Part shown: piece by piece, positions 3,001 through 62,919 of the stretch | How the letters are laid out: every line of letters starts with the position of its first letter | Numbering within the stretch: position 1 is the first letter of the stretch | Assembly: GCA_027604185.1 (NCBI GenBank) | Contig: JADGKB010000028.1 | Coordinates: forward strand, 62,001 to 126,000 | From: Boothiomyces macroporosus | Taxonomy: Eukaryota > Chytridiomycota > Chytridiomycetes > Rhizophydiales > Terramycetaceae | DNA length: 64,000 nt | Reading direction: 5' to 3' | The notes under the pieces: generated by a model | The model's database searches: none | The model's input: only the letters and a program-made list of their open reading frames with translations | Told to the model about the DNA's origin: nothing | Made by a program: the position numbers and the translations under genes

Positions 3001-5912
3001 AGGCGGACGATTGTATTGATTAACGGTGTAAGTGCCTAATCTTGAACGTAGCAAGTCCAATGTGCCTTTTGTGTTTTGAACGAGCGCTTCGAAATTTTGA
3101 TAATTGGCATTATAATACACTGCTTCATATGCCAATCGTAATTCTGCATTCATGTACTGTGGCAGGACACGTCTTGATAGTTCAGCAATCATGTCTCTGG
3201 CAGCACTTTCAATAAGATTACTGCGGTTGCTAATGAGTTGAAGCATATTTGCGCATCTCTTTTCTGTCTTTTCTTGGAATATTTCAATGGTCCACTGTTC
3301 ACTATCTTGAGGGACTTCAATCAATGACATTTCCGCTATTTTCTTTACACCAGCTTCAATTCTGCAGTGAGAAATATCTAAAAGTTTTTCAATCAATTCT
3401 TGCAGCTTTGCTAGCTGTTTATGGTTAGCCTGAAGGTAGTCATCAAGGTTTAAAGAAGTCCTAGAAATAAAATAAATAGTTACCATGTAAGCGCAGTGAG
3501 ACCAGGCTGTAAAGTGCGATCTAAATCATCAATATGAGGGGCCAATGCCTTCTTTAAAATTACCGAAACACGGTCCAAAAGGTTCTTCTTGCTCTGTAGA
3601 ATTCTGTGCAGTTCGTTGTTTAAACCGCGATAGTAGAATTCTTTGACACAAACGTTTCTCACAGAAGGAGGTACTTCAAGACCCATTCTTTGCAAGTACT
3701 TTGTCTCCTTGATGAGCTGCAAAATTTGAGGATCAAAGTTTACATAAACTTGCCCTTCGGCAGTAGATACCAAAAGAGTAGCTTGCAGACCAGTTTTTGC
3801 TTGATCTACAATGCTATACCATGATCTATACCAGAGAATTTCGAATTCAATTAACGCACGAGCCAACTTGTTGTAATTTCTAATGTGCTTTTTAGCTTCA
3901 GCAGAATCCAAGACGGTAGTATTTGCCTTGAACTCTTTCATAGGCGATTCAATTCTTCTGTACAGCTGACGAGCCCATGCAATTGCTCCAGCAACAGGCG
4001 GCGTGTTTCTTGGAATGGGAGGGGCATCCTTGAACTTTTGATACATTTTACGGACACCTTCAAGATCTCTTCGCGTATAGTGGACAAAAACAGCGTGATA
4101 TTTTGATTCTAAATCAATCTGCATATCTTTGATCTTTCTGAATTTAGAAAGCAGCTCCAAGGAATTCTCAGTACTGGTGATATGCTCGAAAGAAGAGTCA
4201 ATAAACTGCTGCAAAGTGGTTTCAATGTCTGCAACCTGCTTTTTGAAATTGTTGTAGTCAGTATCATATTCCATCTTTCTATGATCAAGGATATCGTATG
4301 GTTTTCTTTGGAGGGCAGTCAAGACATTGTAGAATCTTCTGACAATCATATCCATCCCTTCAACGCCAAGTTGCTGGAGCAAAGAAAACTTTTGGATAAT
4401 GTTGAACATGTCAATGACTTTTTGGATCCTCTTGCAGAAAGCGTCAAATTTACCAAATATGTACATTTCAGAAAAGTCGAATTGCTTTTCGTTTGGTGTT
4501 TCTTGAAGTTTTTTCTAAGTCAGTAATTGATTTACCTTGATTTCATGGAAGCACCGTTGGTAAGCTTCGTTCAACTTCATGCACTGCATTAGCTTTTGAA
4601 CCAGAATCTGTCTGTCTAAATCCCAGATCTTTGAGCCTCCTTCTTTATATACAAATTCTTTACAGCTGGTGATCATTTGATTGGTGATTTTAACAAACAA
4701 GGAAGTCATTCTTTCAGATGTATTGTAATATCTTGAAATGGAATAAATCATCTTGATGGCGTTGATTAGCCCAGGGATGGCAGGAATCATACCCAAAGGA
4801 TCGCTTTGATAGAGAGGGTCGCAGAAACGATCTAAAGTATATAGATACTTGACATTATCTTTGGATTCGTTGGCAGCATCAGTGACTCTGTCATCCAAGT
4901 CTTTCCATGTCTTTAATAAAGCACGGGATTTGACGGCATTCAGAATCCCAATAACTTTTTTGCAAGACGGACTCTTTAGTTGGTCAGTGATGCTATTGAA
5001 CTTTACCATTCTCGCTTTCCAATGCGCTAACTCGGCATTTGGACCAATATCATCCGCTTCTTTTCTCATTTGCTCACTTTCAGCCAATACTTGCTCGATT
5101 TGCTTGCACCATTCAGTAACAAGAGCTAGATTAGATACAGGGAACCTTCAATTCCGTTGATTACTTCAGGGTCGTGGGCTGCGTTGCTGTATTCGCTTGG
5201 CTTCTTGTAAGCATCCAAGTCGATAGTACATTTATGTAGCTGGACGCTGTCTTGAAGATTTACCATTGCCACGTCCAAGTCGTTGGTAAACTTTTCCAAG
5301 ACTTCCATGAATGTTTTTACGCTTTCGTCCTTGTTCTTTGACAACACACCCCAGGTATCCTGCGGTTAAATAGACTTACCTGAGCTGCCAAAGCAGGGAA
5401 AATTACATGCTTGACCATGGTTGTTAAAGACGGAAGGATATTTGCATTAAGCGGGCCAAAGGAGATGTCTGTGTATATATTTTGAACTGTGATAGGCTTG
5501 GTATTAATTCTAATGAAAAATGCTCCTAATCCAGTCAGTACTTCCTTTTGACCGTGTGTAACTATTAACGTATTTGATTTTGCTTGGTTGGCGTTCACTT
5601 TTCCAATACCTGTGTCTTCCTACTATTAGCGAGTCCAACCTTTTGCCAGTAGAAAATCACCTTTCTGGAACCTCCATCAGCAAAAAAATCATTAACTAAA
5701 TCCAGCTTGTTTCCCATCAACAAAGAATTCTCCAGAACGGATGGTTTCTCGTCAATGAAAACACCAAATTTTTCGAGCAAATATCGATGTCGGATATCCA
5801 ATGATGCTCGTTTCTTTTCTATCGCGTTTTGTGTTGCAGCAGCTTTCTTTTTATCATTCTCGAATGTATTTAAATTCTGCGCACTTCCAGCGTTTGCTGC
5901 TATAGATGCCAT
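1..5912 (-). CDS. Outer-arm axonemal dynein heavy chain (DNAH5/DNAH8, gamma type), N-terminal part
   Basis: Motor subunit of the ciliary outer dynein arm. The window holds roughly the first 1,930 residues and the gene runs off the left edge inside AAA1. Starting at the ATG at 5912, I see the tail domain (DHC_N1), the linker (DHC_N2) and then the AAA1 Walker A motif GPAGTGKTE (near 165-190), followed by [19 protein letters not shown] and CFDEFNRI. This wording is typical of the DNAH5/DNAH8 group rather than cytoplasmic dynein. The N-terminus ([26 protein letters not shown]) also fits that group. Placed introns are 3461-3483, 4515-4535, 5126-5145 and 5360-5379; a fifth junction near 5599-5625 (about 26 nt) is less certain. 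Many plus-strand frames here are antisense shadows. A full chain is about 4,500 aa, so about 40% is present. Confidence 0.93.
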
Positions 5913-6561: not shown

Positions 6562-7327
6562 ATGAGTTCACTCGCAATCTTTATTGGTCAGATATGGCTA
6601 GTACTGTCTAACATGATCTTCCTGGGCCTGTCAATAATGGCGGCAGTTATAGGAGTAGAAGTTATCAAGATCAACACTTCAAATTCGGACTCGGATTACG
6701 TTCAATTCAACCTGGTTTACGTTGCTTATTGTAATCGTTCATTAATTTAGTCCTGTTTACATTTGCTGCACTGTTTGCAATATCCGCCGTTTCTGGGAGT
6801 TTGGTCGCAATATATAGGAAAATCACTGGTGTGCTATGGTTTTACATTATATCAATCGTTGTCGATGTTTTATTGATTTCTGCTGGTGGGATATATGCGC
6901 TGATAAAGCTGTCTAGCAGCCTGAATACTTGGAGAGCCTTTTCCCTCTTTGATTGGCAAAAGTTGAATCCCCAAGTTAAAGATTACATTCAGGTCAAGGT
7001 ATTTACTTGCTAAGATAGATGTACTGCTGCGGATTTAATCCAGGGGATGGAAGCGCTTACACTGGAAAGACTGGGTTTTTCAATCCAGATGGAACAGAAC
7101 TAGTTAATGTGTGCGCAATCAACTCTACTCATCTTCTCGGATGCCACGAAGCCGGGATTTCTTATTTCCAATACTTTTTATACATGACTGCTGGTGCTAC
7201 TATATTTGCGTTCGTCATTGGCGTTTCCTCAATTATATCTGCGTATCTGTTGTATCAAAAACGAACGGCTCGACAGGCTTTCATTCACAAAGGCAAAGGT
7301 CCGTATCAGCCGGTAAAATCCCCATAA
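6562..7327 (+). CDS. Tetraspanin-like four-TM membrane protein
   Basis: Predicted 241-aa membrane protein in three exons, with introns at 6731-6750 and 6999-7018 (20 nt each). TM1 is at about residues 5-30, TM2 at about 50-75, TM3 at about 85-110, then a Cys-containing large loop and TM4 at about 195-225. The loop opens with the tetraspanin signature Cys-Cys-Gly (MYCCGFNPG), which only becomes contiguous once the 20-nt intron at 6999 is removed, and has two further cysteines (NVCAIN, LLGCHEAG). The C-terminal tail is basic. Tetraspanins organise partner proteins in membrane microdomains; no specific role can be read here. The loop is short for the family, so a divergent fungal type is likely. 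Confidence 0.72.
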
Positions 7328-7382
7328 ATAATAAATCTGTTTGTACAATTGAGGAATTTTGATTTTTTCAAAATTTTGAAAA

Positions 7383-10177
7383 ATGTGGCAGCTGCTGATT
7401 CTGCTGATATCCGTTCAATGCATGAGCGAAGCTCGTAGAAAGACCCTAAGGCAAGTATTCGATAATATAGGGACAAGGCATTGGAGATGTTTGACCATGG
7501 TAATATTTGCTAATGCAGCATATTTATCGTATATGAATCACGCATACCCTGAAGACGAATTGAATCCAATCGCATGTAGCGGACGATCTCGAGACCACGA
7601 TGAAACCAATTGGTAACCATCATTGTAATTGTAGGGCTGTCAACGATGTCTTGGGAAACTTTTCATTGACACTCATTGATTCACTCGATACCCTAGCAGT
7701 AAACACCATTTGATATAGATAATGGGCAAGAATGAGGAATTTGGAGATGCGGTGCGCAAAGTAATTTCAACCATTCATTTTGATTTGGATAATAGAGTAC
7801 AAGTTTTTGAAGTTACGATACGTGTACTAGGTGGATTGCTTTCAGCGCATTTGCTCGCTTCTAATCCAAAGCTGGACTGTTATCTGGATTGGTATAATGG
7901 AGAATTATTACACCTTGCCAAGGATTTAGCGGATAGGCTGATGCCTGCTTTTGATACGCCTTTTGGACTACCTTATCCTAGGGTTAATTTAAAATCGGGA
8001 GTGCTGCCATATGAAGTCCAGGAAGCGTGTACTGCTGGTGCTGGGTAAATACTATTTTAGGCTAGTACGCTGTTGTTAGAGTTTGGAACGCTAAGCAGAT
8101 TATTAGGGGATGAAAAGTATGAATTAGCAGCGAAAAGGGTACATTTAACTGATACAGGCTCTGTATGAAATTTGGGCGAGAAGATCGAAGTTAAATTTGG
8201 TGGGAAATACAATGAACTTGTATGATGATAAATGGGTGGACGATATGGCAGGGATCGGAGCTGGAATTGATTCTTTTTATGAATACTTGTTCAAATCGTA
8301 TGTGTTATTTGGAAATGATGAATATTTGAAAATATATAATGAAGCTTATCAAGGAGTGATGACGCATCTAGTAGATGGAGAAGGATTTATATACAAGAAT
8401 GTTAAAATGGGAAGTGGAAAGTTGGCTGCCCCATGGTTAGATTCCCTCTCTGCTTTCTTTCCTGGACTGCAAGTGTTGGCTGGAGATGTTCAAAGTGCTA
8501 TTAGACCGCATTTTCTGTATGCTTCTCTCTGGAAAAGATTTAATTGTATACCGGAAAGATACAATTTTCAAAGTCAAGGGCTCAGTATATCAGCATATCC
8601 TCTAAGACCAGAATTTGTAGAATCAACATACATGTTGTATCAAGTAATCCTGGTCTCATTTAGGCGACTCAAAATCATTACTATTTGGATGTTGGAGAGC
8701 AAATACTGGAAGATTTAAACAAGTATGCAAGAGTGCCATGCGGGTTTTCAGGCTTTTCCGATGTCAACAACAAGCAGTCTTATGATACTCGGATGGAAAG
8801 CTTCTTTCTAAGTGAAACGCTAAAATACTTGTACCTATTGTTTGATACTGGTTCTATTTAGATTTACGGTAGATAATTTTGTAAACAAGATGGATACAAA
8901 TGCTATTTTCACCACAGAAGGACATTTCCTGCTATTGCCGCACAGATATACTGACACTAATGGCTCAAAATCAACACAGACATGTCAAAATATACACCAA
9001 GTTCCATTCAATTCTGGACCCAATATACCACAAGAGCTGCGTTTGATGTGTGAAGTGTTTGTCGGGATAAAAAATGACGGAGTAACGGAAACGATACAGC
9101 CCATCGATCCTGTAGAAGTGATGTATGAAAGTATCTTAAATTTCCTTTTTTATTCTAATCTACCAAGCTTCTTTGTTAGATTAGTAATAATATTTTCCAT
9201 CTTGAACTTATTAAGGAGATTTAATCTAATAAACTAGATTACCTACATTGGATAAGCAAAAGAGTGGAACAATTGTATTGGTAAGAAGAATCTAACTTAG
9301 CATAATGGAAACTTGTTGATTGATCAACTACGAGGTGCTTCGATGACTGTGAAATATGACAGCAAAAAATTGGGTTATGTAGTCACTGCCTTGAATCAAA
9401 TTAATTTGCAAAGTGGAGGTAAAGTATATACTTCTTTGAGAGCACTTTCAGGCACAGATTATATACCTAGCAATCAGTACCTGTCTGCTATATTTAAACT
9501 CAAACAAAAGAGCAAAATTATCAGTGTTTATGCTGTCCCAAGCGTGATTGGGCCATTACTCCACCACGGATTGACAATAACCGGTAAATTGGTGTCCATT
9601 ACTAACACAAAGTCGATTTCTTCTGTCAACGATATAGATTCTGGATGCAAGCCATACACTAATGCTCAGCAGAGTGTAATTGCAGGCTCTTTCGTGATTG
9701 TCAAAAGAGGGGACTGTAATTTCGTTCAAAAAATTGAAAATGCATACTTGGCGGGGGCAAAAGGAGTTCTAGTCCTCTCTCAAACACCGTTTATATCAAT
9801 GACTCGACCAAATCAGCTATATGGTGATGGAATGGTAAATGGAGTGGATACGATCCCCATACCAAGCTTCTTCTTGGACGACAAGGAAACTAAAAGGTTT
9901 TTAAAGTGCTCGTTGGATAAAATCTATATCAAAATTGTTGACAAGGAGGTTTTACACCCACATAAAAAGCTGTATGACCAAGTGTCATATTTCGGTTCAA
10001 GCATCAAGAATGTTGTTATAGGACAAGGCGAGCTCTTGATGAAATCTGAACAGTTCTACAGTAGCGATTACCATCGACCTAGCGAGTTGCGTTGTTCACA
10101 ACAAACCTGTAGTACTCGGTGTTGCAATTAATAAACAGTTCCAAATGCAATTAATAAACAGTTCCAAATGCAATTAA
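7383..10177 (+). CDS. EDEM3-like ER alpha-mannosidase (GH47) with PA domain
   Basis: GH47-family protein that would trim mannose from misfolded ER glycoproteins for ERAD. An N-terminal hydrophobic segment looks like a signal peptide. GH47 landmarks follow: [86 protein letters not shown] and IFTTEGHFL. The downstream protease-associated domain ([29 protein letters not shown]) is the EDEM3/Mnl1 arrangement. Clear introns: 7613-7634, 7699-7718, 8045-8065, 8139-8157, 8644-8663, 8851-8872 and 9281-9300. The segment 9123-9237 must also be removed, but its splicing is unresolved; taken as one intron it is 115 nt, far longer than any other. The uninterrupted last frame stops at 10131; an alternative splice (about 10036-10057, GC donor) gives a more protein-like C-terminus ending at 10177 inside a tandem repeat. 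Catalytic residues were not checked one by one. Confidence 0.85.
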
Positions 10178-10932: not shown

Positions 10933-12499
10933 ATGAAATTCAGTTTGCTCGTTTCGTTCATTTCACTCGTCGCTGCGGCTCCAAGACCAAACTTTGAAGT
11001 AGATGCGTTTGGAAGTGCCTTTGCTTTCTTAGATTATGGTGCTTTTAAAGGTATTGTGCAAGATGATACTGTTTCATTCTTGAACATTCCGTTTGCAGCC
11101 CCACCAGTTGGAAACCTTCGCTTTAAAGCTCCGCAGCCTCCAGTTCCTTTCTTTGGAATTCATGATGCAACAAAATATGGAAATATCTGTAAGCAAACTG
11201 GTGCTTTTGGATCAGGCGGTGTTTATGGGGACGAGGACTGTCTGAACTTGAATATTTACGCACCAAGAGATGCTTTTGGTTTGCCAGTTATTGTTTGTAA
11301 GTGTTAAATTTAACCTAGATGTGTTTGGCGGTGGTTTCAATGATGGCAGCAACCAGGAACCAATGTTTGACGGCAGAAATATAATCAAAGAAAACCCAAA
11401 TGCAGTTATTGTCACCATAAACTACCGTGTTAATCTGTTTGGATGGCTGGGTGGTCTAGAATTGGCTCAAGAAGGCTCTGTTAACGCAGGGCTTTTGGAT
11501 CAAGCTGCTGCATTCCAATGGGTCAGAAAGTATATCGATGTTTTTGGTGGTGATTCCTCACAAATCACTGCCATGGGTGAATCAAGTGGTGCTATCAGTA
11601 TTGGTGCTCACTTGCTTGCCAAAGATGGTACACAGACCTTGTTCGATCGTGCTATCCTTTTATCTGGGGCAGCTGGTATGTTCTACAACACTCCTGCCTC
11701 ATTTAACCAACACTTTGTCGACTTTGCAGCTTGTAATTATTGACTAATTGTAGCTGTAAATTGCACTGTAGCTCCTCTACTGCCATGCCTGCGCAAACTA
11801 AGTGCTGATGTTCTTATTGCCCACAAGCCAAACATCCAATGGAACATTATCGCCGATGGCACTTATGTAAAGGACGAATCTCTGGTGGAATTGTATGCAA
11901 AAGATGAGTTCTCCAAAGTCCCTCTCCTTATTAACGGGGATCTGAACGAAGGTACAATCTTTACCACTGGTATTCAAACTGAACAACAATTATTCGGATT
12001 TGAAGCGTCCTTTTTGGGCTTCTTTACTCCAGATAATTTGAAAACCTTGCAGCAAAGCTATCCAGTTGCTGGTAACCCATTAGGAGCTTTTGGTGCAGCG
12101 GCAGATTTCTTTGGTGATGCAATTTTCAACTGCCCTTCAACTCTATTCGCTGAATTCTATTCCAAAGCAAACATTACTGTCTACAAGTCTATTAACAGAC
12201 ACGTTCCAAAGAAACCTGCTTACCAAAACGCTGGTCCATTGGGCGTATACCACGGATCTGAATTGCCATATGTGTTCCAGTACTCTCCACTCATTGACAG
12301 CACTGAAACCGCATTTGCTCGCCAATTTACTGATAGCATCATCAACTTTGCTAGTGGGAATGCACCACAGCCAAACTGGCCAGCTTATGGAAACGTCAGA
12401 GTAGATTTGGAAACTTTGAAACCAGAATCTGATGGGTTATCAAAGAACTGCCAGTTCTTGATTGGTGCAATTCTGCAATTCTTTCAATCTCAACATTAA
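10933..12499 (+). CDS. Secreted type-B carboxylesterase / lipase
   Basis: Predicted 507-aa secreted serine hydrolase of the cholinesterase/carboxylesterase family (alpha/beta fold). The signal peptide is MKFSLLVSFISLVAAAP. Family landmarks in order: FLNIPFAAPPVGNLRF, EDCLNLNIYAP, an oxyanion-hole stretch FGGGF, the nucleophile elbow MGESSGA (catalytic Ser), an acidic residue in NGDLNEGTIF, and the catalytic His region GVYHGSELPYVF. Introns at 11297-11318 (22 nt) and 11733-11753 (21 nt) restore frame. The usual HGGG has Phe in place of His, and the protein is slightly shorter than typical 540-aa members. The natural substrate cannot be inferred; extracellular ester breakdown is likely. Confidence 0.9.
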
Positions 12500-13272: not shown

Positions 13273-14323
13273 CTAGAATCTTTTATTTGATTTTTGTTGA
13301 GATGTGCGGTAAATGACAAATCCAACGTAAGCTACAATGGCAATCAACACCAAGTAAATAAACATTTGAACCCCGCTGGTTCCTTTCTTTTCAGTTACTG
13401 GTGGCTTGTTGTATTGATTAGAAGTATCGAATTTGTTGTCTGAACTAGATGCATAGGATTTTTGTCTGTTTTCTTCTCCTGATTTCTATCATCAGTTTGA
13501 ATTACCTCGAGAGTTACTGCGTAGGTCTTTGTGTAAATCAAATCGTGCTTAGAAGAAACCCCACCGGTAGCAGCGGTAAATCCTAAAAAGTAGTTTAGCG
13601 GGATTTTCTGTTCAATCTTGAAGCACTGGATCCACTGGCTAGGGTCATGCACACTTGTCAATTCCAACTAGATTAATATTAGATTGCCTTTAAATAATTG
13701 CCATCCAAGTAGGTTACTCTTGCTCTTGTTGGATTTTCTTGATTTCTAAAATCATGAGAACAGCCTCCCAGTTCTACACTATTCCCATCAAAATCATGAT
13801 CGTAACTAGTCTTTCCGTCTCCCATCATCGCCATTACATAAGGATAGGAGTGTCTAACTCTAGAGTTGGCATAGGTATCAAAGAATATCCCTAGCCCTTC
13901 AAAGTTATCTTTAGACCCAAACACAGGACCTGAATTAACTTTTAAATACCTTGAATTTCCTTTTCTTTGGTAACCCAGAAAGCAAACCCATCACCGCTGA
14001 GCGCTCCTTCGTGTTGGACTTTAAATTCAAACTCGACAATCCAAGAACTGTAATACATCGGTGTATTACTCCATAACCATCCAGATTGTGACTGAGTATC
14101 CCTGGTTAATCTAATGTATTCATTAACATTTACAAATGCATCTGTATTAGCAAGATATACCTCCCCCAAATTTCCACCATCGGTTACGAAGCGAATCTTC
14201 CACATATGGCGGCTGAAAACTGAAGGCTTGTAGTTCATGAGTTGATTTAATAAGCGGATCGTCGAATAATGGAGCGTCGTTTGGCTGGCAATTGACAACA
14301 GCAAGCAATAAATGGATGAGCAT
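13273..14323 (-). CDS. L-type lectin cargo receptor (ERGIC-53/VIP36/EMP46-47 family)
   Basis: Predicted 323-aa type-I membrane lectin for glycoprotein cargo in the early secretory pathway. A short signal-like start (MLIHLLLAVVNC) precedes the lectin domain: FSFQPPYVEDSLRNRWWKFG, FGGDAFVNVNEYIRLT, DGFAFWVTKE, LGIFFDTYAN and the metal/sugar-binding type region MMGDGKTSYDHDFDG. A linker, one TM (VQMFIYLVLIAIVAYVGFVI) and a short basic tail ending Asn-Lys-Arg-Phe follow; the terminal Phe may serve ER exit. Introns: 14142-14160, 13930-13949, 13668-13687 (GC-AG) and 13486-13505. Longer upstream frames start at GTG or TTG, so 14323 is the first ATG; an upstream exon is not excluded. Converges on 12640-13254. 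Confidence 0.88.
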
Positions 14324-25163: not shown

Positions 25164-25614
25164 ATGGACTATTGGGATGCAAACACACTACTTGCTGAAC
25201 AGACGCCATTAAAAGTAACTTTTACCTCGCAACTACCGCACTACGGATTCCTAGTCGGCGAGAAACATATTCATCCCGGAACGACTACTTCAGTGCCAAC
25301 TTGGTTTGCGCTACAAATAGAGTACAATTGCTTAACATAGCGATCTGATTGATTTCAGCATACCGCAGATATTTGAACTACTCAAGGAAGATTTGGAAGC
25401 TTCAGCGGTGTCAGTCAACCTTTCCAAATCCCCATATTTCTATGAATTCTGTATTCTGTTGTCTCAACAAATGCGCATACCAGGAGTACAGAAAGAGTGC
25501 AGAGAAGCGATAAAGCAGAGATTAAAGAGTATATATGACGCCGGAATCACTAATAATAAGAATGACTTTTACTTGTCGCTGTCGGAAGCCGAGAAGGAAT
25601 GTAAGAGGTGTTAA
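25164..25614 (+). CDS. PSF3: GINS complex subunit PSF3
   Basis: Subunit of the GINS tetramer, part of the CMG replicative helicase. Two exons with a 19-nt intron (25322-25340) give 143 aa. Matching features: YWDANTLLAEQTPLKVTF near the start, HYGFLV, GTTTSVPTWFALQ (family: polar-LPLWLA), then DDLIDFSIPQIFELLKEDL and the SPYFYEFC segment, ending in a helix with YDAGITNNKNDFYLSL. It is shorter than most Psf3 proteins (about 180-210 aa). The ATG at 25164 is the first in frame; the open frame continues upstream without another ATG. Confidence 0.85.
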
Positions 25615-38909: not shown

Positions 38910-38919
38910 TACTCGTAAT

Positions 38920-42710: not shown

Positions 42711-42737
42711 CCCAAGTTGGCCCTTTCTTCAGAATCG

Positions 42738-51830: not shown

Positions 51831-53078
51831 TTATGTAGGTGGTATTTCTGGTATTTGGCCAAATTCAAATCTTGGGGCTGCAAAGGCTGCAGCAATTTGT
51901 TCTGGAGTCATGCTGGAGTTGATTGGATTTGCTGGTAGTGTCTGCACAGGCTGTGAAGAGTTTGTTATAGGTACTGTATTTGTAGGTTGGCTAGGCACTG
52001 AGTTTGTGTTACTTCCGAAAGCATTACCTGCAGTAGCATTGGGCTGACCAAATGCTGTGGTAGCATTAACTGCTGTATTAGTTCCACCAAACGCAGCAGG
52101 TGCAGGATTGCTACCAAAACCAGGACCAGCATTCTTTCCAAAGGCAGATGTAGTATTTCCAGGGGTGTTTCCAAAAGTTGAAGGAGCAGTGTTTCCTCCA
52201 AAAGCTGAATTGGTGTTTCCTCCAAAGGCTGAATTGGTGTTTCCTCCAAAAGCTGAATTGGTGTTTCCTCCAAAGGCAGAGGTAGTATTGCTTCCTCCAA
52301 AGGCAGATACAGTGGTATTGTTTGCTCCAAAAGTAGATCCAGTGGTATTGTTTGCTCCAAAGGCAGAGATTGGTTTGCTTCCACCAAAAGCACTTGCTTG
52401 ACCATTCCCGAACGCTGAAATAGAGTTTCCTCCAAATGCAGATGTGTTACTACCTCCAAATCCAGTAGTTCCAAAGGCAGATGTAGTTGATGTAGTTGGT
52501 TTAGTAGGTGTAGAAAATGCAGAAGTATTTCCAAATCCAGTAGTTCCGAATGCACTGTTAGTTTTATTCCCAAATCCTGTCTGTCCAAATGCAGATGTTT
52601 GTCCGCCAAAGGTAGTTGGTTTAGCACCAAAGCTGTTGGTAATATTTGAGGTGTTTCCAAATGCTGATTTAGTTGGGGTCGAAAAAGCAGATGCACTAGA
52701 ACCTCCAGCTTCATTAACAGCCAATTGCGGATTCTGTATTACACGCTGTAACTCGCTGGTCATTTTCAACTTCATCTGATTTATGGTGGTAATATAGTTG
52801 TTTATCTGTCCAGTCGTTTTAAGCTCCAATACCGCATTCCACCTCGCTTCATCCTGCGATAAATCCGTTCCTTTAATAACATTTACATCGTACTTGGCAA
52901 GACCAACGCTGGATAGATACCATAGCGGTCGTTCAGATTCTAATTCAGTACGGACGGTATCTCTATCGTAAGCAGATTTGGCAGTTGCTGCTGGCTTGCT
53001 TTCATGAAGAAATTTACAACTATTTCCGTTTCTACATCGTCCTTCCTGAAAGAATTTGCAAGGAACTCTGGTGGCCAT
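51831..53078 (-). CDS. NUP42: NUP42 (NLP1/Rip1-like) CCCH FG-nucleoporin
   Basis: Cytoplasmic nuclear-pore protein working with Gle1 and DBP5 in mRNA export. Single-exon 415 aa. The N-terminus is a CCCH zinc finger (VPCKFFQEGRCRNGNSCKFLH), then a helical region (RPLWYLSSVGLAKYDVNVIKG), about 20 FG repeats of SAFG/TTFG type, and the C-terminal Gle1-binding type segment ending PRFEFGQIPEIPPT. The FG region includes a 24-nt minisatellite (GNTNSAFG) in three near-identical copies at about 52189-52260. Long antisense frames across it are compositional shadows. The DBP5 gene lies 3.3 kb away on the same strand. Confidence 0.92.
   Translation of the reverse strand: MATRVPCKFFQEGRCRNGNSCKFLHESKPAATAKSAYDRDTVRTELESERPLWYLSSVGLAKYDVNVIKGTDLSQDEARWNAVLELKTTGQINNYITTINQMKLKMTSELQRVIQNPQLAVNEAGGSSASAFSTPTKSAFGNTSNITNSFGAKPTTFGGQTSAFGQTGFGNKTNSAFGTTGFGNTSAFSTPTKPTTSTTSAFGTTGFGGSNTSAFGGNSISAFGNGQASAFGGSKPISAFGANNTTGSTFGANNTTVSAFGGSNTTSAFGGNTNSAFGGNTNSAFGGNTNSAFGGNTAPSTFGNTPGNTTSAFGKNAGPGFGSNPAPAAFGGTNTAVNATTAFGQPNATAGNAFGSNTNSVPSQPTNTVPITNSSQPVQTLPANPINSSMTPEQIAAAFAAPRFEFGQIPEIPPT
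52189..52284. repeat. 24-nt tandem repeat inside NUP42
   Basis: Three tandem 24-base copies (starting 52189, 52213, 52237) plus a partial fourth encode the FG unit G-G-N-T-N-S-A-F; the copies differ at one or two bases. In-frame unit length keeps the gene open. Confidence 0.85.
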
Positions 53079-53238: not shown

Positions 53239-55165
53239 TTACATTTTCTCCTTCATAACTTCAGGGGCGACAAAGGTTCTTCTATTTACAGTTGACATTT
53301 CTCTAATATGTTTGAACTCGTTTCCACACTGTGTAAGTTGGGGGTGTAGATGGTCCTCTATTTGGTCATGAGGAGGATTGAATGGCTTTGGTCTAGGGGC
53401 ATCAAATCCCTTGTACGTTTGCTGAACGGTGGTTTCAAAGGTATCAGTGACAAACGGATACCTTGATTAATCGCGATTACCTAGTAACAGTGTTGTTTAC
53501 AGTAACTTGGAATTGATCATCCTCTCTGGTAACACGATGATTACCGCCATATCCAGCAGGAGCGACTTGCTTTAATTGATTCAGCTTTTCCATATCAAAG
53601 GCATCATCCTTCTTTTCAAAGGTAGATCTTTCATCTGGGCTACTTTCAAAGCTGAAATGACTGTTTCTAAAATCTTTATCAATTTTCGATCTTCCACTGA
53701 AATTCAATAAATCAACTTTTATGTAGTCTTGGCGATGCACTGATTCGTAATTTGGTGCTTCTTCGTTACCAATCAACAACTGGTAAGGTACACATCCAGG
53801 AACTGCATCTATCCGTCCGCCTTTTTCGTACTGGTGCTTTGCAATTTCCGGATTCCTTTCCACAGGTTTCTTAAAGTCGAGATGTGCCAATGATTTTGAC
53901 TCACCCAAACCATCCCCGTTTCCTAAAACAATCGATGAACGACTGTTATTTTTCTAATTTAATACAAAATACCTTGATGGCATTCAAATCCATTTGTCCA
54001 ATTGATTTCAGAGATAGTAGTGGATAATCTACTTTTTGTGAAGAAGTGCCGATTCGTCGATCTTCAAAATCCTCAGCAATGATGCACAGACTGTTGGAGT
54101 TTTCTGCTTTCTTGATCTGGCTCCTAGAGCTTTTCAATGGAACAAATGATTTCTTGTACTCTGAATGTAACTGACTTTCACTTTCATTACCAAGCGAAAA
54201 GTGTGTCCCATTCAAGGCTTTTTTCGAAGTTGAGTTGTCAAACATTAAGGATTTCCAATCTATCTCCGCATTTGGTTTGAATTCTGCATTAGAACCACTT
54301 ACCAGACTGGTGCAAAGTTTGAATCGGATCAAGAACCAAATCAGGGTTATCCAACACTGACGACTTTGTTTTTTCCAGTAATTCGTAATCTGAAGGCTCA
54401 TTTTTTGTGCCAACTGGATGCGATAGTAAAGTCTTTTGGGAGATACTTTGCCAATCATTGCTATCATTTCCTAAAGAGATATGAGAAGTAGATTTGGTGG
54501 AAGCGCTAATTTTACTCCATTGCGGACGCTCATCTAACCGGGTTTTAATTGTAACCTGTATTAAATAGTATTACTAATGGTTTGCGGTTTGCTAAACGCA
54601 AAGGCTCTCCCATTTCTTCGCAATTCAACAAAGGAAACTTTCCTACACCAACAGGATTTGCTCCATACCTTGAAGGAACATGGATATTCAATAGTTAATA
54701 CAAAAATACTTTTAGATCGTACTTTACGTAGTCGGTTTTGATTGAGCTCTTTGAGTTTCTAGGAGGCTGTCCAATCTCCATTGAAAAATGGGTGGAATTC
54801 ATTGACTGAGCAACTACATCAATTTAAACAAACTTTTTTTCGCATTTAGTGTGCTATTAAATGTCAACTGCTTTGACACGTAGTCGTCTCTCATAGTACT
54901 TTTCCATTTGTCCAAAACTTCATCCGCGTAGCTGCATTTAGAGGTATAAAAATTATTATAGTCTGGTTAATTAATAAATACTTTGTTTAGGTTTGAAGTT
55001 CTCTTGTTTGGTGTATATCTTTTTCCTCATTAATTGTCGATGTTCTGGTGAAATGTCGACTAGTGAAGGGTCCAAGTCATGGGGCGATACTTGCAATGGG
55101 TCGCTTAGTAGCAGCTGTGTAATAACATGTTTGGATCTGCAATCTGGAATTATATCTGCCTTCAT
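53239..55165 (-). CDS. Probable axonemal protein with repeated S/T-H-F/I-S motifs
   Basis: Predicted 596-aa protein in eight exons; introns 54963-54981, 54814-54833, about 54689-54709, 54556-54574, 54284-54302, 53954-53972 and 53462-53480. Five dispersed copies of a short motif are visible: STHFSMEIG, TSHISLGND, GTHFSLGNE, RSSIVLGNG and NSHFSFESS. C-terminal parts such as YGGNHRVTREDDQF, FETTVQQTYKGFDAPRPKPF and NRRTFVAPEVM look like the short microtubule-binding elements of axonemal inner-junction and SAXO/PPP1R32-type proteins. I infer a flagellar role, in keeping with the dynein gene here. The third junction is ambiguous: a 21-nt GT-TG segment or a 33-nt GT-AG intron (54669-54701) both keep frame. 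Confidence 0.68.
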
Positions 55166-55214: not shown

Positions 55215-56172
55215 TTATTCTGTATTTCCTTGTACAACTTGAGGTTCTAAACTTTCTACTTGAATATCCAATTCCTCTGGCTCTACCTGTACTTCTTCCT
55301 GGAGCAATCTTTCCTGATCTTCTTGTTTCGCAGCTGGGAAAAAGTAGAAAATAACCCACATGAGCACTAGGATCCCTTGCAGCATCCCGCAGATTACAAA
55401 TGATATCCACGAAGTCCAATTCGTGCCGGGTTGGATGGATAGAGAATACGCGAAAACAAAAGAGCCTACGGTAAGGATAGAGTACCAGGACTTTGCATCA
55501 GTAAGGTAGACAAAGACAGCGCTCCAAACTCTCTTGTAATCCCAGTATGTACAACTTGCGGTACGAATTGAAAGATCCCACTGATTGCACTAATAATTCC
55601 CAATAAAGCTGCCCACCCAAACTTTATGTCTCCAAAATTATCCAGTTGATCCAAAACTAAAACTATAACTACAAGGATAAATACAATAATCAGATAAGAA
55701 ACCATAAAATAAAGCACGTTTTGTGCAACTGCCCAGCTAGTTGTTTTTGGTCTGTCGCTCTCTTCATCCTCAACTGGAAAGTGAGTGTAAAATAACGAAA
55801 CGCTTGATTAGCAATATTTACAATGTGAGAAAGCAAGTGAACTGCACCGCGACTTGAATTATTCCCATTACATCCTGAATACAGTACGCGATCGGCCACT
55901 AAATCAGCGATAGACTTACAACATTAATACAGCACTGAATTGAATCAAATTGCAATATAAATACATTTCCTGCATTAACAAATTGTACCGATGGTAGCGG
56001 TAGCGCCAATGATTCCTAATAGCAAGTACCAAATTGAAATTCCTTGGCTCGTTTTTGTGATGGATAATTTGAGTAGTTGCGGGAGGTAAGAGATCAGCAA
56101 CCCCAAGCAAATGAATACACCGATCACCAATTTTGCAGGGTTGGGGTTTTGCGGACAGCTTTCTTGAAACAT
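55215..56172 (-). CDS. PQ-loop repeat membrane transporter
   Basis: Predicted 292-aa, about seven-TM protein in five exons; introns 55970-55988, 55899-55919, 55803-55821 and 55466-55485 (19, 21, 19, 20 nt). The first PQ-loop motif is SYLPQLLKLSITKTSQGISI, the second QFVPQVVHTGITREFGALSL, each in the expected place at the end of a TM pair. The centre (FDSIQCCINVWP, CIQDVMGIIQVAVQF) is reconstructed only by removing two mini-introns. The tail is acidic. PQ-loop proteins include cystinosin- and YPQ-type vacuolar amino-acid exporters and others; the substrate cannot be told. The start at 56172 is the first ATG (the frame is open upstream from a TTG). Confidence 0.85.
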
Positions 56173-56378: not shown

Positions 56379-57793
56379 TTATATTTCCTTTTTCAAAATC
56401 TTTTCGATATCTGCAATATTATCAGTTGGTACACGGATAATCTCTCTGCCAATATAACTTTCAATCGCTTTCATTTCTTCAAATGACCGTTTATCGTGGC
56501 AGAAATTGATGGATACACCTTGGCGTCCAAATCGACCGGTTCTTCCAATACGGTGAATATATGTCTCTGCGTCTGGTCGCATATCCTTGTCTACAGGCAT
56601 GTCGTAATTAATTACCAAATTAACTTGGAGAATATCAATTCCTCTTGCCAAGACGTTTGTTGTAATAAGCACTTTGGATCTTCCTTCTCTGAAATCATCA
56701 ATCGCTTTGTCTCTATCTGCACCTTCAAAGTCACCATGGAGTGAAGAAACTGAATGCCCTTCGTCAGTCATTCGCTTTTGCAGGTAATCAGCAGTCCTTC
56801 GTGTTCGCACAAAGATGATTGATTGTCCAATGGTAAGCAAGTCATAAATTGAAGAAAGGATTTCTGCTTTGTGCTGTTCATTCTTGCAATCCATGTAAAA
56901 CTGTTTAATAGAATCCACTGACAATTCTTCTTGTTTCAAACTAATGGTGTTTGCATTGACAGCGAATTTGGTGGCATATTCGCGGACATGGTCTGGAAAA
57001 GTAGCAGAGAACAGGACAATTTGACAGGTTTTTGGCATTACACTAGCATTAGAAGAAAATACTTTTTGATGCGGACACTAGTATCTCCTAATCCTTGCTG
57101 ATCCAACATTGAGTCTGCTTCATCCAATACAAAGACAATAATTTTGGAAACATCCAATTGCCGTTTTTTTATCAATTCCATGACAGTACCAGGAGTACCT
57201 ACCACTACATGGGCAGATACCTTTTCGCCACGTTCAATGGCACCAGGAACAGCCAAGCTTGTAACTACTTGGGTGAATTTCCCCATTTCTCTGAGATTAT
57301 CCAAGATTTGTCTAGCCAATTCTCTAGCTGGAGCAATAACCAGTGCTTGAGTAGTTTTTTGCGCAATATTAATCCTGGACAATATATTGAGTGAAAAGGC
57401 AGCTGTTTTCCCAGTACCTGCTTGGGATTGCCCAATCATATTCTTTGGCGGATCAGCCAATAATAATGGGAGAGCTGTAGCTTGAATTTTGGATGGTTTT
57501 TGGTACCCCATTGCGTATACACCTTTAAGCAACTCTTCCTTTAGCTTTAAATCTTCAAACGTCGAAACAGAGTGGTAAATATCATTGGAATCGGCAAGAG
57601 TGACTTGGACATCATGCTCTACTTCAGCAAGATGAGGGTGCTTTTTAATTTCCTTGATTTCCTTTTCAAGCTGATCCATCTTTATAGTCTCAGTAGGTTC
57701 GTCTGCCCAGGATGATTCCTTTTTGATTGGCGTTGGTTCTGGATCCTTTCCCCATGAAGATTCTTTGACATTAGTTTCTCCCCAACCAGACAT
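56379..57793 (-). CDS. DBP5: DEAD-box mRNA-export helicase DBP5 (DDX19)
   Basis: RNA-dependent ATPase that remodels mRNPs at the cytoplasmic face of the nuclear pore. Predicted 464 aa, one 20-nt intron at 57043-57062. DEAD-box motifs: Q motif (YQKPSKIQATALPLLL), motif I AGTGKT, PARELA, TPGT, DEAD (VLDEADSML), SAT (LFSATFP), and in the second domain IIFVRTRRTADYL, TTNVLARGID, and HRIGRTGRFGR. The N-terminal extension and the HDVQVTLADSNDIYHSVSTF segment identify DBP5 rather than eIF4A. Starts MSGWGETNVKESSWG; Trp-containing N-terminal repeats resemble plant and fungal DBP5. NUP42, a partner, is 3.3 kb downstream. Confidence 0.96.
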
Positions 57794-58096: not shown

Positions 58097-59703
58097 ATGG
58101 TTGTTAGTGCTTATTATTCAAGAATGCCCACAATTAGATGCCAGGATTGCAATGCAGTCGTTGAATGGGCAAACGAGCATACCCATGTCTGCGGACAGGA
58201 CGAAAATCCCATGCCATCCCATAAATTTCACAGACCTCCCAGCTCAGTTTATGGAATGAATCAACTGAACGATGGAATGAAGGATATGAAAGTATCTCGA
58301 TTTGAAGAGCGATCCGCTTCAAAAAAGAAAGCCGACCCAATTCAAGCGTTCCAGCAATTCAAAAACAAAAAATCATTTGACGACAGCGATGATTATCACG
58401 GGTATGATGATTTCAAACCGACTCCATACGAAGAACCAAGAAAGAGATATGAAGATAGAAATCCGTATGAAAAGGACCGCAATCATGATAGAAATGAAAG
58501 AAGAAATCAGGACCAGTATGATGACAGGCACCAAAGGGATGACCGTTATCAACAAAGAGATGACCGTTATCAACAAAGAGATGATCGATACCAACCAGCA
58601 GACAGATATGATGACAGATATCAACCAGAGCCAATGCGCAACAACTCCTTTAGGGAAAAAGAACGCTTCCCACAAAATGATTTGCAAAGGAATGATTCTT
58701 ACAAAAACAATATCCAACGCAACGACTCTTTCAAAAACGATTTGCAAAGAAATGATTCATTCAAAGATGATTTCCAACACGACTACAGTCAACCGTATTT
58801 TGAGCCAAGAAAGAATGCTTCACCAGTTGATGAATACGACTTGATTTGTGGTGATTGTAAACAGCCAATTTATGACACTGCTGACGCTTTTGAAATTGAA
58901 GTATTGAACAAGGCAAGTGAAATTCTAATCTAGTGGTACCATGTCGATTGCTTCCGTTGTGAAGTTTGCCATATTCCATTTGATGACAACTTTCCTTATG
59001 TTCCTCATGAAGGAAAAGCCTTCTGCGAGCAACATTATGCAGATAATTTCCTCTCTACTTGTGCAGCTTGGTAAGTTCTTGTTAATCAAAGCAACAAACC
59101 AATTACTGACGGTAAAATCAGCCATGCGTTTGGAAGGGTTTTCCATGCTCGACATTTAAGAGTATTTTCTATTAACTTCAGTGTAATATCTGCAAGCACA
59201 GAATTAGGGGCCCTCATGTGGAGCATAATGGCAAGGCATTTTGTGCAGAGGACTATGAGAGATTAACCCAATCCAATTGTGCAAGATGTCAACAGCCAAT
59301 TGATGGCAACAGTGTTCACGCTTGCGGAGGTAACTTTAGAGTAATTCCAGGAGTGTATCATAGAGATTGCTTTGGTTGTACTACTTGCTACGCGCCGTTC
59401 CCTGACAAAAAGTTTTTCGTTTATGAAGGACAACCTTACTGTTTGATGCATTACCACGAAGCAAGCAACACTCTTTGTGGTGCATGTAGAAACCCAATCC
59501 AAGGACAGTGTGTAGATATCAGGGAAACCAACAAGCGTTACCATCCAGATTGTTGGACTTGCGCAGTGTGCAGAATGAGACTCACAGGTGTCTATTTTTC
59601 ATTCAATGGAAAGCAATATTGCGAAGCAGATATAGATAGAGTATACAAGCAAGGAAACGGTCGTCACAAGCCAAGTAAACGAAATACCTTTTTGCGAGAA
59701 TAA
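58097..59703 (+). CDS. Four-LIM-domain protein with disordered Asp/Arg-rich linker
   Basis: Predicted 514 aa; introns 58913-58933 (21 nt, GC-AG), 59071-59091 and 59162-59181. An N-terminal zinc-ribbon-like element (RCQDCNAVVEWANEHTHVC) precedes a long disordered region with tandem units RDDRYQQ and QRNDSFKN/D. Four LIM domains follow: LICGDCKQPI..., CAACNKPIT..., CARCQQPID..., CGACRNPIQ..., each with paired CxxC and HxxC-type ligands (HVDCFRCEVC, HRDCFGCTTC, HPDCWTCAVC). This is a paxillin/Lrg-like scaffold arrangement used at the cell cortex in fungi. The start may instead be the ATG at 58124 (MPTIRCQDC). Divergent from DBP5. Confidence 0.9.
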
Positions 59704-59805: not shown

Positions 59806-60769
59806 ATGAAAATCCAAGATACGTTCGAACTTGAAGGTGCTCGATGTTAACGCAGAACTGGATCAAAACCTATACCGCTCCAAAGTCCTTGTCAAGCCTT
59901 TCAGAGCCAGAGGAGTATTTGGAGGAGTACAGTATTTTTAACACAGCATATTTTAGCATTATCAATCCATGCAGCAGCAAAAACAATGGACCCGAAATTT
60001 CACTTTCAGTCTGCTCATTGCTACTTTATACTCGCCGGGGATGATCAAGTACCAGTGGTGTTCAACGTAATCAACGAGCGTACTGGAACTAGTTATGCAA
60101 AGCGGATAGTTAGAGCATCGCAAAACGGAAAGACGATATTTTCGTTGATTGCGTCGTTTGCAGTGCCGGAACAGTCGCAATTAGAATATCAAGTAAAGAT
60201 GCCCAAAGTGCTGTTTCCACACGAGTTCAAATGTGAAATGGAAAGCGGGTTGGCTGGTGACGAGAGATCAATAATGTTTCATAACAGTATTAGATTGCCG
60301 GTAGAGATGGATGTTAAAGTAATCCCAACTGAATATTTGATTGAAAACAGCTTGCCTAGTAATAAATTGTATTACTGGATGAGGAGCAAAGCAGACTTGC
60401 CCCCAGACCAACTGCTACATTCTTTAATCGCCGCTTATATCTCTGACTACGAGATTTTAAACTCTAGTTTAGCTCCGTACGGATTAAGCAAACATGGGAA
60501 CAAGGATAGAAAAGCTTTGACGATGATTGTCAGTCTGGACCATGCTATTTGGCTACACCAGCCTTTTAAAGCTGATGAATGGCACTTGTTTGAACTACAG
60601 GTAAAGCCATCTAATACAGAATACAAGATCAAATAACGGACGGGCATTCTGTAACGCCAAAGTGTTCAATATGAGGGGTGAATTGGTAATGTCGACTGCG
60701 CAAGAAGGTGTAATCAGGATTAAGCTGACCGAGAAGCAGATTAACCAAGCGAAAAACGCCAGATTGTGA
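59806..60769 (+). CDS. Peroxisomal acyl-CoA thioesterase (TesB/ACOT8 type)
   Basis: Hydrolyses acyl-CoA to free acid and CoA; double-hotdog TesB family. Predicted 301 aa in four exons; introns 59837-59855, 59927-59946 and 60601-60619 (19, 20, 19 nt). Landmarks: FELEELDQNLYRSK at the start, ARGVFGGHILALSIHAAA, then KFHFQSAHCYFILAGDDQVP, a central domain ending in SLDHAIWLHQPFKADEWHLF (family His-Ser-type catalytic region), and NNGRAFCNAKVFNMRGELV. The last three residues are Ala-Arg-Leu, an accepted PTS1 peroxisome-targeting tripeptide, so import by the PEX5 encoded at 25.9 kb is likely. All three mini-introns are needed to obtain this C-terminus. Convergent with the branching-enzyme gene, 25 bases apart. 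Confidence 0.93.
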
Positions 60770-60794: not shown

Positions 60795-62919
60795 TTAAGA
60801 TTTGAATTGGAGTACGAATGCAGTGCGACATGGGATATACAACGAAACGCAGTATTCCCTGTTACAGTACGGTCCTTTGAATGGGAAATGCTTTACTGTA
60901 TGGTCGATTCTCCCGTGTCCACCAAAGTACTTGCTATCAGTGTCAAGCACGACGACGTGCTCTGTTTTACCACTCGTTCCTACTCTGTAATCAGTAAAGC
61001 TTTTTGTTGGATGGAAATTAAAGACAAACAACAAATCATCCTTTTCAAAAACGATAATCTTGTCTCCTTCGTGTTTAAGACTGGTGTATTCAGTTTTAGA
61101 TAGGAAGTTGGTTTCTGATTCCAAATGAAGCATTGCTTTGTCGAATTCGTACAAGTATTTGTAACGCAATAGGTGGTCGTCAATCAAGTTGAATTGACGT
61201 CTGGCATGGTGGAAAGAGTTTCCGTTTCCTTCTCTGGGAAAATCTAACCATTCTGGATGGCCAAATTCATTTCCAATAAAGTTGAGATAGCCTTTGCCTC
61301 CCAATGCACACGTAATTAGTCTATTTTAGTTTTTATGTACCTGATCATTTTGTGCAAAGCGATACCTCTATCAATTACTGGAGTCAACGGGCTCAATTCA
61401 GACATGTTAAAGTACATTTCTTGATCCATCAACCAGAACGCTAACGTCTTATCGCCAACCAGTGCTTGATCGTGGCTTTCAGCATACGCAATTGTAGATT
61501 CCTATAATCAGATGCTGCAATTACATTCCAGCGTCTGTTGGTCAGTGTATGAACAATGCTGCCCATATCCCAGTCATCGTCAGACTTTTCCTTCAACAGC
61601 TTAATCCACATGTCTGGAACAGCCATATTTAAACGGTAATCAAATCCGATACCCCCTTCTTCTACTGGACGGCACAAAGCTAATTTAGAAATGATTTACT
61701 AGGCATTCCCGATACATCTTCTGCAATAGTGGTAACATGAGGGAAAAGAGTCTTGAGCATGTAATTAGCAACCATTAAATAGTTGACTGCGTCCAAATCA
61801 ACTTGTTCTCCAAAGTAATCGTTATAGCCACCACCAAAAGCAGTTCCTAATCCATGATGGTGATACAGCATACTAGTAACACCATCGAATCTAAATCCAT
61901 CGAATTTATATTCTTCAATCCAATATCTGAGATTGCACAACAAAAATCTGAGTACTTCATGGTGAGAGTAATTGAACAATCTTGAATCCCACAAATTGTG
62001 GTAACCCCTGCCGCCTTCATGGAAATATTGATGATCTACAGTCAAATAGAGCTTACCAGTTCCATCAAATTGATTCAAGCCATCTAAAACATTCTTGCAA
62101 GCGTGAGAATGGACTACATCAAGTAAAACGGTGATTCCATATGAATGTGCAACATCAATCAGTCTCATCAACTGTTCTGGTGTACCACAGCGACTAGTAG
62201 GAGCAAAAAAGTTTGTAACTTGGTACCCAAATGACGCATAGTAAGGATGCTCCATAATTGCCATTAGCTGAATTGTATTGTATCCTAGATCTCTGATTCT
62301 TGGCAATACATTATCAGTAAAGTTGTCATAGTCTGCTACTTTGTATTCTGGTGAAGCAATACCAACGTGCGACTCGTAAATTTTAAGCGTCTTTGGTTTT
62401 GGAGGAACAGGGTGTTGGAACTTGTACTTTGGAGGGTTCCAAAACACACCGTCGTAAACTGGAGATTTGGACAGATCTTGAACTGCTCTCTTTATCCAAG
62501 CTGGGATTCGTTCAACCCTTTCACCATTCGGCAAAACAAGAGAAATCTTTACTTTGGTGTTGTGAGGAATCGCTGTGGAATTGTTTACATGCGGAAGTCT
62601 GATTTCAAACACCCCAAATTCGTTGCGGGTCATTTCATGTTGGTTGCGATCCCAATTGTTGAAATCACCAATCAAGAAAGCTTGTTTGGCGTTTGGAGCC
62701 CATTCGCGGTAGACGATTTCCTTGTCCTTGATTAAAAACCCTAAAGTTGGTTTAGTAAACTCGTCGATTCCCTTCTCTGTCTCTTGGATCATCTTGATGG
62801 TCTTTTGGAATTGGGAGATTCTAGATATCAGCCAATCTGTACCTGTAGTCAATGTTTCCTTGGAAAGGGGCGAGGTAAGGGTCATCCTTGATCAATTGCG
62901 CAGACGTTATTTGCTCCAT
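60795..62919 (-). CDS. GBE1: 1,4-alpha-glucan (glycogen) branching enzyme
   Basis: Creates alpha-1,6 branches in glycogen (GH13). Predicted 679 aa in five exons; introns 62821-62842, 61680-61699, 61502-61524 and 61321-61340 (22, 20, 23, 20 nt). The N-terminal helix and CBM48 ([20 protein letters not shown]) are followed by the catalytic barrel: [62 protein letters not shown] (nucleophile Asp), [10 protein letters not shown] (acid Glu), [13 protein letters not shown] (transition-state Asp) and [17 protein letters not shown]. The ATG at 62919 ([15 protein letters not shown]) is reached by removing the first intron; a start at 62885 would give a non-homologous N-terminus. Confidence 0.97.

Follow-up and report, generated by a model that had tools for sequence, protein, structure and literature searches.

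Introns of 19–23 nucleotides in the chytrid Boothiomyces macroporosus: probable U2-type splicing at its minimal size

Ultra-short introns have been described from heterotrich ciliates (PMC9505925), mikrocytids and chlorarachniophyte nucleomorphs (PMC10245619), two papers that we use here in excerpt. In the ciliate Stentor coeruleus they measure 15–16 nucleotides (nt), the branch adenosine is in most cases nt 10 and is followed by a tail of 5 nt, and all five major small nuclear RNAs (snRNAs) have been found (PMC9505925). Mikrocytids, which are symbionts, have introns of 16–17 nt and a spliceosome reduced to 17–19 proteins, and the introns of chlorarachniophyte nucleomorphs span 18–21 nt (PMC10245619). 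Here we examine a stretch of 64,000 nt from the fungus Boothiomyces macroporosus (the window, part of contig C28, JADGKB010000028.1), whose genes are interrupted by segments of 19–23 nt, and we put the probability that these are U2-type spliceosomal introns, shrunk genome-wide to the functional minimum, at about 0.94. Boothiomyces (Terramycetaceae, Rhizophydiales, Chytridiomycota) is a free-living, flagellated genus. The open-access papers searched did not reveal any earlier description of introns of this kind from fungi, and none of the open-access literature on Boothiomyces concerns introns, judging by titles and the opening lines of abstracts.

The size class stands out from chance before any gene is modelled. 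The window holds 28 GTA...YTRAY...AG segments of 19 nt, 16 of 20 nt and 12 of 21 nt, where 20 third-order Markov sequences lead one to expect 8.0, 8.0 and 9.5; after these, the highest counts are 14 each for 32 nt and 34 nt (7.4 and 8.0 expected). The assembly searched comprises 15,203,306 bases in 216 contigs, and our wider sample of 312 kb joins the window to 248 kb drawn from 25 other contigs. Outside the window, the same segments occur 87, 121, 75 and 41 times at 19–22 nt against 29.6, 28.8, 30.4 and 27.0 expected from eight Markov sequences, and the strongest excess among lengths of 23–60 nt is 41 against 27.9, at 31 nt.

Gene models came from a self-written, self-trained decoder able to reach segments of up to 200 nt. 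Its motif mode applies a donor/branch score and is length-neutral from 12 to 40 nt, a wide-range run on the window used the same score with length neutrality between 12 and 130 nt, and its neutral mode has neither motif nor length preference. A first version, with an overly strict intron penalty and training on intronless genes, gave 15–26 introns of mixed length and was abandoned. Its successors, in which the donor/branch score was soft, already showed the short-length peak; since that score could bias the result, motif-free and decoy decoders were added. Motif-mode decoding of the 312 kb placed 317 of 365 introns at 19–23 nt (89, 131, 59, 30 and 8, respectively; mode 20), and motif-free decoding over 12–150 nt placed 135 of 237 there. 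Under neutral decoding, GT-AG ends yielded 143 introns of 19–23 nt and eight other end pairs 18–26; GC-AG, among whose introns are a few that look real, was one of the eight. Thus GT-AG (rarely GC-AG) ends are enriched above chance, and the first-pass annotation, which had called the mini-introns genome-wide from the window, is borne out across the sample by a single narrow length peak with one supported exception of 115 nt. Of the 184 predicted genes that encode 100 residues or more, 123 contain a 19–23-nt intron (mean 1.72 per gene), which by extrapolation would amount to about 16,000 in the genome.

Homologous proteins provide evidence on individual junctions. We asked whether five residues on each side of a junction align without gaps, using 12, 12 and 9 homologues for PRP8, EDEM and GBE1 out of 120 listed. 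The six PRP8 introns given by the decoder (20, 19, 21, 21, 22 and 22 nt) have junctions that are gap-free in 11, 12, 12, 12, 12 and 11 of 12 homologues, the nine EDEM mini-introns in 9, 8, 9, 10, 11, 11, 11, 8 and 9 of 12, and the five GBE1 introns in 6, 8, 8, 9 and 9 of 9; the remaining cases are 7-residue inserts or relatives with differing models. Alignments to solved structures agree at three of three junctions in aspartate aminotransferase, one of one in DBP5, three of three in the thioesterase and one in SDHA, and one of three PEX5 introns falls within a gap-free TPR match. Counting 23 in the window and six in PRP8, all 29 mini-intron junctions tested agree with homology, so that removal restores the conserved protein each time. 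One of them did so after re-placement: EDEM intron 8851–8872 had initially been set 11 nt upstream and fits only once shifted. Spliced EDEM, whose length the shift leaves unchanged, carries an unbroken GH47 domain (29–462) and a PA domain.

Public proteins add a second line of evidence, as they carry 7-residue inserts at six of the homology-tested intron positions. Those of Boothiomyces sp. JEL0866, whose PRP8 matches our spliced version at 99%, lie at PRP8 intron 1, at two EDEM introns and at GBE1 introns 1 and 3, where the B. macroporosus introns are 20 or 22 nt long. Judged from these proteins, the corresponding JEL0866 introns would be 21 nt long and read through. Gene finders readily overlook an intron of 21 nt that has no in-frame stop, and GBE1 of B. 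macroporosus itself offers an example: the public protein keeps the residues GKLYLTV at 62036–62056, an insert lacking from the other eight of nine homologues compared. This intron was overlooked by the first-pass annotation, by our decoder and by the public model alike. Strong-motif segments left inside predicted coding sequences tell the same story, with 12 at 21 nt (11 of them in phase 1) as against 2 of 19 nt and 6 of 20 nt, an excess indicating that the decoder undercounts 21-nt introns. In EDEM, the Kappamyces homologue (P0135) has a 10-residue insert at the first intron position (7451–7470), as would result if a 30-nt intron had been read through in this second chytrid genus.

The evidence above also bears on whether the segments might be artefacts, namely sequencing indels, pseudogenes or the product of an overfitted gene finder. 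The decoder does make false joins, as its 18–26 introns of 19–23 nt with decoy ends demonstrate, but GT-AG stands about 120 above the decoys, the junctions agree with many homologues and the sister strain's proteins bear inserts at the same positions; we accord this explanation a negligible probability.

Two public B. macroporosus models were examined, and they show a read-through intron, skipped exons and, in EDEM (7019–10131), fusion with the tetraspanin-like neighbour. From residue 86 of our protein on, the public EDEM is identical to it at all 560 aligned residues (560 of 560); it starts inside that neighbouring gene, omits exon sequence and lacks the stretch between window positions 8643 and 9301. 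The public GBE1 is identical at 647 of 647 aligned residues from residue 26 of our protein on and has a different N-terminus. Given such faults, the proteins predicted for these species call for checking. A Terramyces model, for its part, fuses tetraspanin-like, EDEM and carboxylesterase parts.

Among neutral-mode introns of 19–23 nt, 145 of 166 start with GTA and 116 of 166 have YTRAY 1–7 nt ahead of the AG, as opposed to 40 and 18 of 91 for other lengths; acceptors are TAG in 111 of 166 and CAG in 34. Of the 317 motif-mode introns, 229 hold one YTRAY, 20 several and 68 none. In the 229 with a single motif, its A lies at nt 14 (118), 15 (75), 16 (21), 17 (3) or earlier (12), hence at nt 14–16 in 214, and the tail after it is 5–6 nt long in 195 and 4 nt in 11. 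The typical layout thus has the putative branch A at nt 14–15 and then 5–6 nt to the end of the acceptor. This agrees, across the 312 kb, with the first-pass view that donor, branch point and acceptor are packed into about 20 nt. Loop and tail lengths are uncorrelated (r = -0.03, n = 218). It seems less likely that the two are fully free rulers, since introns of 18 nt hardly occur (2 of 365 in motif mode) although tails of 4 nt are seen with longer loops; alternatively, the 4-nt tails are mis-assigned branch points.

The machinery that would act on such introns appears ordinary. The genome contains canonical motifs of U1 (ACTTACCT), U2 (GTAGTA) and U6 (ACAGAGA), and all six protein factors searched for, PRP8, SF1, U2AF65, U2AF35, Slu7 and Prp18, were found; several matches are split or contain in-frame stops, as expected if mini-introns interrupt them. 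The idea that U2AF, Slu7 or Prp18 had been lost owing to the short branch–acceptor distance is thereby ruled out, and the unusual machinery that the first-pass annotation had envisaged is not seen at the level of presence. With these snRNA motifs and factors in place, the introns are most simply explained by ordinary U2-type splicing with its geometry at the minimum. (A search of the assembly with a conserved piece of 18S gave no match; it lacked a positive control and is therefore uninformative.)

Very short, uniform segments also occur in systems in which DNA is eliminated or the ribosome skips part of the message. The segments described here might likewise be removed from DNA in the manner of ciliate internal eliminated sequences or bypassed in translation. 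Internal eliminated sequences and translational bypass have ends other than GT-AG and no spliceosomal signals, and we know of no DNA elimination of this kind in fungi. The Boothiomyces segments have the anatomy GT(A)...YTRAY...AG, the genome has U1, U2 and U6 motifs to match as well as the splicing factors searched for, and we regard this alternative as highly improbable.

A different question is whether splicing proceeds only through a specially modified spliceosome, which would refine rather than exclude the preferred explanation. A 14-nt loop and a 5-nt tail are far below the distances usual in fungi. In Stentor, such a modification has been suggested to affect the branching factors, and the N-termini of Cwc25 and Isy1 have diverged, according to the sections of that paper used here (PMC9505925). 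As the aligned part of PRP8 is 82–90% identical to that of the other listed chytrids and the U1, U2 and U6 motifs are canonical, we consider this refinement possible but rather unlikely.

Under U2-type splicing, U1 would pair with the GTA-type donor and YTRAY would be recognised by SF1 and then by U2 through GTAGTA, its A being mostly nt 14 or 15 and sometimes 16. The first step would then produce a lariat loop of about 14–16 nt, and the acceptor AG would end mostly 5–6 nt past the branch A, leaving no space for a polypyrimidine tract. Intron length would be the sum of loop and tail, with 14 + 5 setting a floor of 19 nt, and would drift by about 1 nt between sister strains at conserved positions. 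The size itself was probably set by deletion bias working against a steric floor. We give even odds to a broader proposal, in which nearly every intron in Terramycetaceae sits at this hard floor, with the 14-nt loop and 5-nt tail varying independently by 1–2 nt. As the host is intron-rich and keeps U2AF and second-step factors, introns of this size may lie within the reach of a general fungal spliceosome and need no reduced one; the minimum may then reflect deletion bias and not factor loss.

One intron departs from the pattern. The first-pass annotation had held every placed intron to be 19–23 nt long, while leaving EDEM segment 9123–9237 as a possible long intron; this segment now appears to be a genuine 115-nt exception by its JEL0866-like junction, which is gap-free in 2 of 12 homologues, the others having diverged there. 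It also holds an inverted repeat, seen by eye (CTAATCTA / TTAGATTAG), and where the EDEM frame ends (about 10125–10215) a unit of about 23 bases (AATAAACAGTTCCAAATGCAATT) is visible by eye in four head-to-tail copies. One may ask, then, whether a sizeable second class of ordinary-length introns was missed alongside real mini-introns, all the more since the decoder ended at 200 nt. Segments of 30–200 nt with GT-AG ends number 24, against 25, 25, 26 and 27 for four decoy pairs; GT-AG not exceeding the decoys, there is no measurable class of ordinary-length introns, and its existence seems improbable.

Several points count against reading the segments as minimal U2-type introns throughout. The support for the 115-nt intron means that longer introns can be spliced; 48 of 365 motif-mode introns fall outside 19–23 nt, and of the 79 introns that the wide-range run gave for the window, 55 measure 19–23 nt and 24 are candidates with other lengths. 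Decoys imply that some 18–26 of the 143 neutral-mode introns could be false. Training the coding model on motif-mode output of the same decoder may also have introduced a bias, one shared by the decoys. YTRAY, which we take as the likely branch site, is absent from 45 of 166 neutral-mode introns, and the introns used to measure the geometry had been preselected for length and in part for motif. The match for U1 scores 68.8 bits, just below the Rfam cut-off of 69.5, and that of U2AF65 is under its curated cut-off and interrupted by stops. Finally, removal by RNA splicing is something we infer from the anatomy, the frames and the junctions.

The adopted window set (Table 1) comprises 66 mini-introns, of which 25, 23, 11, 5 and 2 measure 19, 20, 21, 22 and 23 nt; all are GT-AG apart from one GC-AG (7451–7470). 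The first-pass annotation had listed 63, and its six examples (8139–8157, 14142–14160, 17039–17057, 27197–27215, 50214–50232 and 60601–60619, three on the minus strand) lie exactly where it had put them and were recovered by the wide-range decoder together with introns at both of its end points (3461–3483 and 62821–62842). Its coding lengths for SDHA (1872) and PEX5 (1551) were reproduced; its 2040 nt for GBE1 still include the stop-free intron at 62036–62056, and the actual length is 2019. It had also taken the host for a free-living flagellated fungus; protein identity to B. macroporosus shows it to be a chytrid, and the window includes a dynein heavy chain gene. Thirty-nine of the 66 introns stem from our decoder alone; de novo in the table marks placement by the decoder. 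The wide-range run did not repeat 6 of 58 short introns of a narrower run and added two, 46089–46107 and 46241–46259, that were not adopted; it mis-sizes introns fixed by homology (35 nt for 20 in GBE1, 31 for 22 in EDEM). Weak members of the set are 52002–52021, 54814–54833 and 55533–55552.

Table 1. Introns placed in the window, with strand and basis of placement.
Feature	Coordinates	Strand	Basis or remark
23-nt intron, dynein heavy chain	3461..3483	-	de novo; DHC_N1 domain on adjoining exon
21-nt intron, dynein heavy chain	4515..4535	-	de novo
20-nt intron, dynein heavy chain	5126..5145	-	de novo
20-nt intron, dynein heavy chain	5360..5379	-	de novo
20-nt intron, dynein heavy chain	5620..5639	-	de novo; 41 nt in wide-range run
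20-nt intron, tetraspanin-like gene	6731..6750	+	de novo; Pfam Tetraspanin on spliced protein
20-nt intron, tetraspanin-like gene	6999..7018	+	de novo
20-nt GC-AG intron, EDEM mannosidase	7451..7470	+	homologue alignment
19-nt intron, EDEM	7500..7518	+	homologue alignment
22-nt intron, EDEM	7613..7634	+	homologue alignment; JEL0866 protein +7 residues
20-nt intron, EDEM	7699..7718	+	homologue alignment
21-nt intron, EDEM	8045..8065	+	homologue alignment
19-nt intron, EDEM	8139..8157	+	homologue alignment
20-nt intron, EDEM	8644..8663	+	homologue alignment
22-nt intron, EDEM	8851..8872	+	homology-placed, LLFDT/DNFVNK; JEL0866 +7 residues
115-nt intron, EDEM	9123..9237	+	junction PVEV/ILPTL same in JEL0866
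20-nt intron, EDEM	9281..9300	+	junction near that of JEL0866; gap-free 9/12; weak conservation beyond genus
22-nt intron, carboxylesterase gene	11297..11318	+	de novo; Pfam COesterase on spliced protein
21-nt intron, carboxylesterase gene	11733..11753	+	de novo
20-nt intron, L-type lectin gene	13486..13505	-	de novo; Pfam Lectin_leg-like
20-nt intron, L-type lectin gene	13930..13949	-	de novo
19-nt intron, L-type lectin gene	14142..14160	-	de novo
21-nt intron, alpha/beta hydrolase gene	15628..15648	+	de novo; Pfam Abhydrolase_3
19-nt intron	16859..16877	-	de novo
19-nt intron	17039..17057	-	de novo
20-nt intron	17176..17195	-	de novo
21-nt intron, SDHA transit peptide	19762..19782	+	by eye; with 19828..19848 gives 1872-nt open frame
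21-nt intron, SDHA transit peptide	19828..19848	+	by eye
22-nt intron, SDHA	20876..20897	+	gap-free vs solved SDHA
19-nt intron	24926..24944	+	de novo
19-nt intron	25322..25340	+	de novo
19-nt intron	25601..25619	+	de novo
20-nt intron, PEX5-like TPR gene	26843..26862	+	de novo; restores 1551-nt frame
19-nt intron, PEX5-like TPR gene	27197..27215	+	junction at residue 420, within gap-free TPR match 407-438
19-nt intron, PEX5-like TPR gene	27425..27443	+	de novo
20-nt intron	27669..27688	-	de novo
19-nt intron	27954..27972	-	de novo
19-nt intron, tandem membrane-protein family	29917..29935	+	de novo
19-nt intron, tandem membrane-protein family	30873..30891	+	de novo
20-nt intron, tandem membrane-protein family	42905..42924	+	de novo
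21-nt intron, mitochondrial aspartate aminotransferase	49456..49476	-	gap-free vs solved enzyme
21-nt intron, aspartate aminotransferase	50007..50027	-	gap-free vs solved enzyme
19-nt intron, aspartate aminotransferase	50214..50232	-	gap-free vs solved enzyme, close to alignment start
19-nt intron, SH3-domain gene	51522..51540	+	de novo; Pfam SH3
19-nt intron, SH3-domain gene	51685..51703	+	de novo
possible 20-nt intron, doubtful	52002..52021	+	de novo only; no branch motif
19-nt intron	53462..53480	-	de novo
19-nt intron	53954..53972	-	de novo
19-nt intron	54284..54302	-	de novo
19-nt intron	54556..54574	-	de novo
possible 20-nt intron, weak donor	54814..54833	-	de novo
19-nt intron	54963..54981	-	de novo
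possible 20-nt intron, PQ-loop gene, weak	55533..55552	-	de novo, narrower run only
19-nt intron, PQ-loop gene	55803..55821	-	de novo, narrower run only; Pfam PQ-loop on spliced protein
21-nt intron, PQ-loop gene	55899..55919	-	de novo, narrower run only
19-nt intron, PQ-loop gene	55970..55988	-	de novo, narrower run only
20-nt intron, DBP5 RNA helicase	57043..57062	-	gap-free vs solved yeast DBP5
21-nt intron, LIM-domain gene	59071..59091	+	de novo; Pfam LIM
20-nt intron, LIM-domain gene	59162..59181	+	de novo
19-nt intron, acyl-CoA thioesterase	59837..59855	+	gap-free vs solved thioesterase
20-nt intron, acyl-CoA thioesterase	59927..59946	+	gap-free vs solved thioesterase
19-nt intron, acyl-CoA thioesterase	60601..60619	+	gap-free vs solved thioesterase
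20-nt intron, GBE1	61321..61340	-	homologues, 9/9 gap-free
23-nt intron, GBE1	61502..61524	-	homologues, 9/9 gap-free
20-nt intron, GBE1	61680..61699	-	homologues, 8/9 gap-free; JEL0866 +7 residues
21-nt stop-free intron, GBE1	62036..62056	-	7-residue insert vs 4bzy; absent from 8/9 homologues
22-nt intron, GBE1	62821..62842	-	homologues, 6/9 gap-free; JEL0866 +7 residues

Elsewhere in the window, a tandem array (28839–45974) encodes nine similar proteins of about 480–500 residues that look membrane-bound by eye, five of the nine intronless; two of them, one as a partial reading frame, were searched against Pfam and gave no match. An intronless ankyrin-repeat protein with repeated GCPWD-like motifs lies at 46445–47323.

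With these introns a fungus, a relative of Batrachochytrium from the same order, joins the short list of eukaryotes at the splicing minimum, and despite its minimal introns the machinery searched for shows no obvious loss. In this group, intron length appears to vary by single nucleotides from one sister strain to the next, which makes it possible to test what sets minimal intron size. Other chytrids (Batrachochytrium, Spizellomyces) are related hosts with many introns, for which the portion of the source consulted gives counts (PMC5364385). Stentor, in the excerpt used here, resembles Boothiomyces in having uniform, genome-wide GT-AG introns in a free-living host and the same tail, whereas the loop here is about 4 nt longer, YTRAY contrasts with the lack of a strong branch consensus and 123 of 184 predicted genes bear introns as compared with 18% (PMC9505925). 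The A of YTRAY falls at nt 10–11, as in Stentor-type geometry, in only 5 of 229 introns. Mikrocytid introns are likewise many, very uniform and highly conserved in sequence, according to the sections consulted, but they belong to symbionts with a reduced spliceosome (PMC10245619), whereas in the fungus Boothiomyces none of the splicing factors looked for is missing. The closest match in length is found in the chlorarachniophyte nucleomorphs, whose range, as given in the same excerpt, almost equals that of Boothiomyces (PMC10245619); a nucleomorph, however, is the relic nucleus of an endosymbiont, whereas the introns described here populate a fungal genome of 15.2 Mb.

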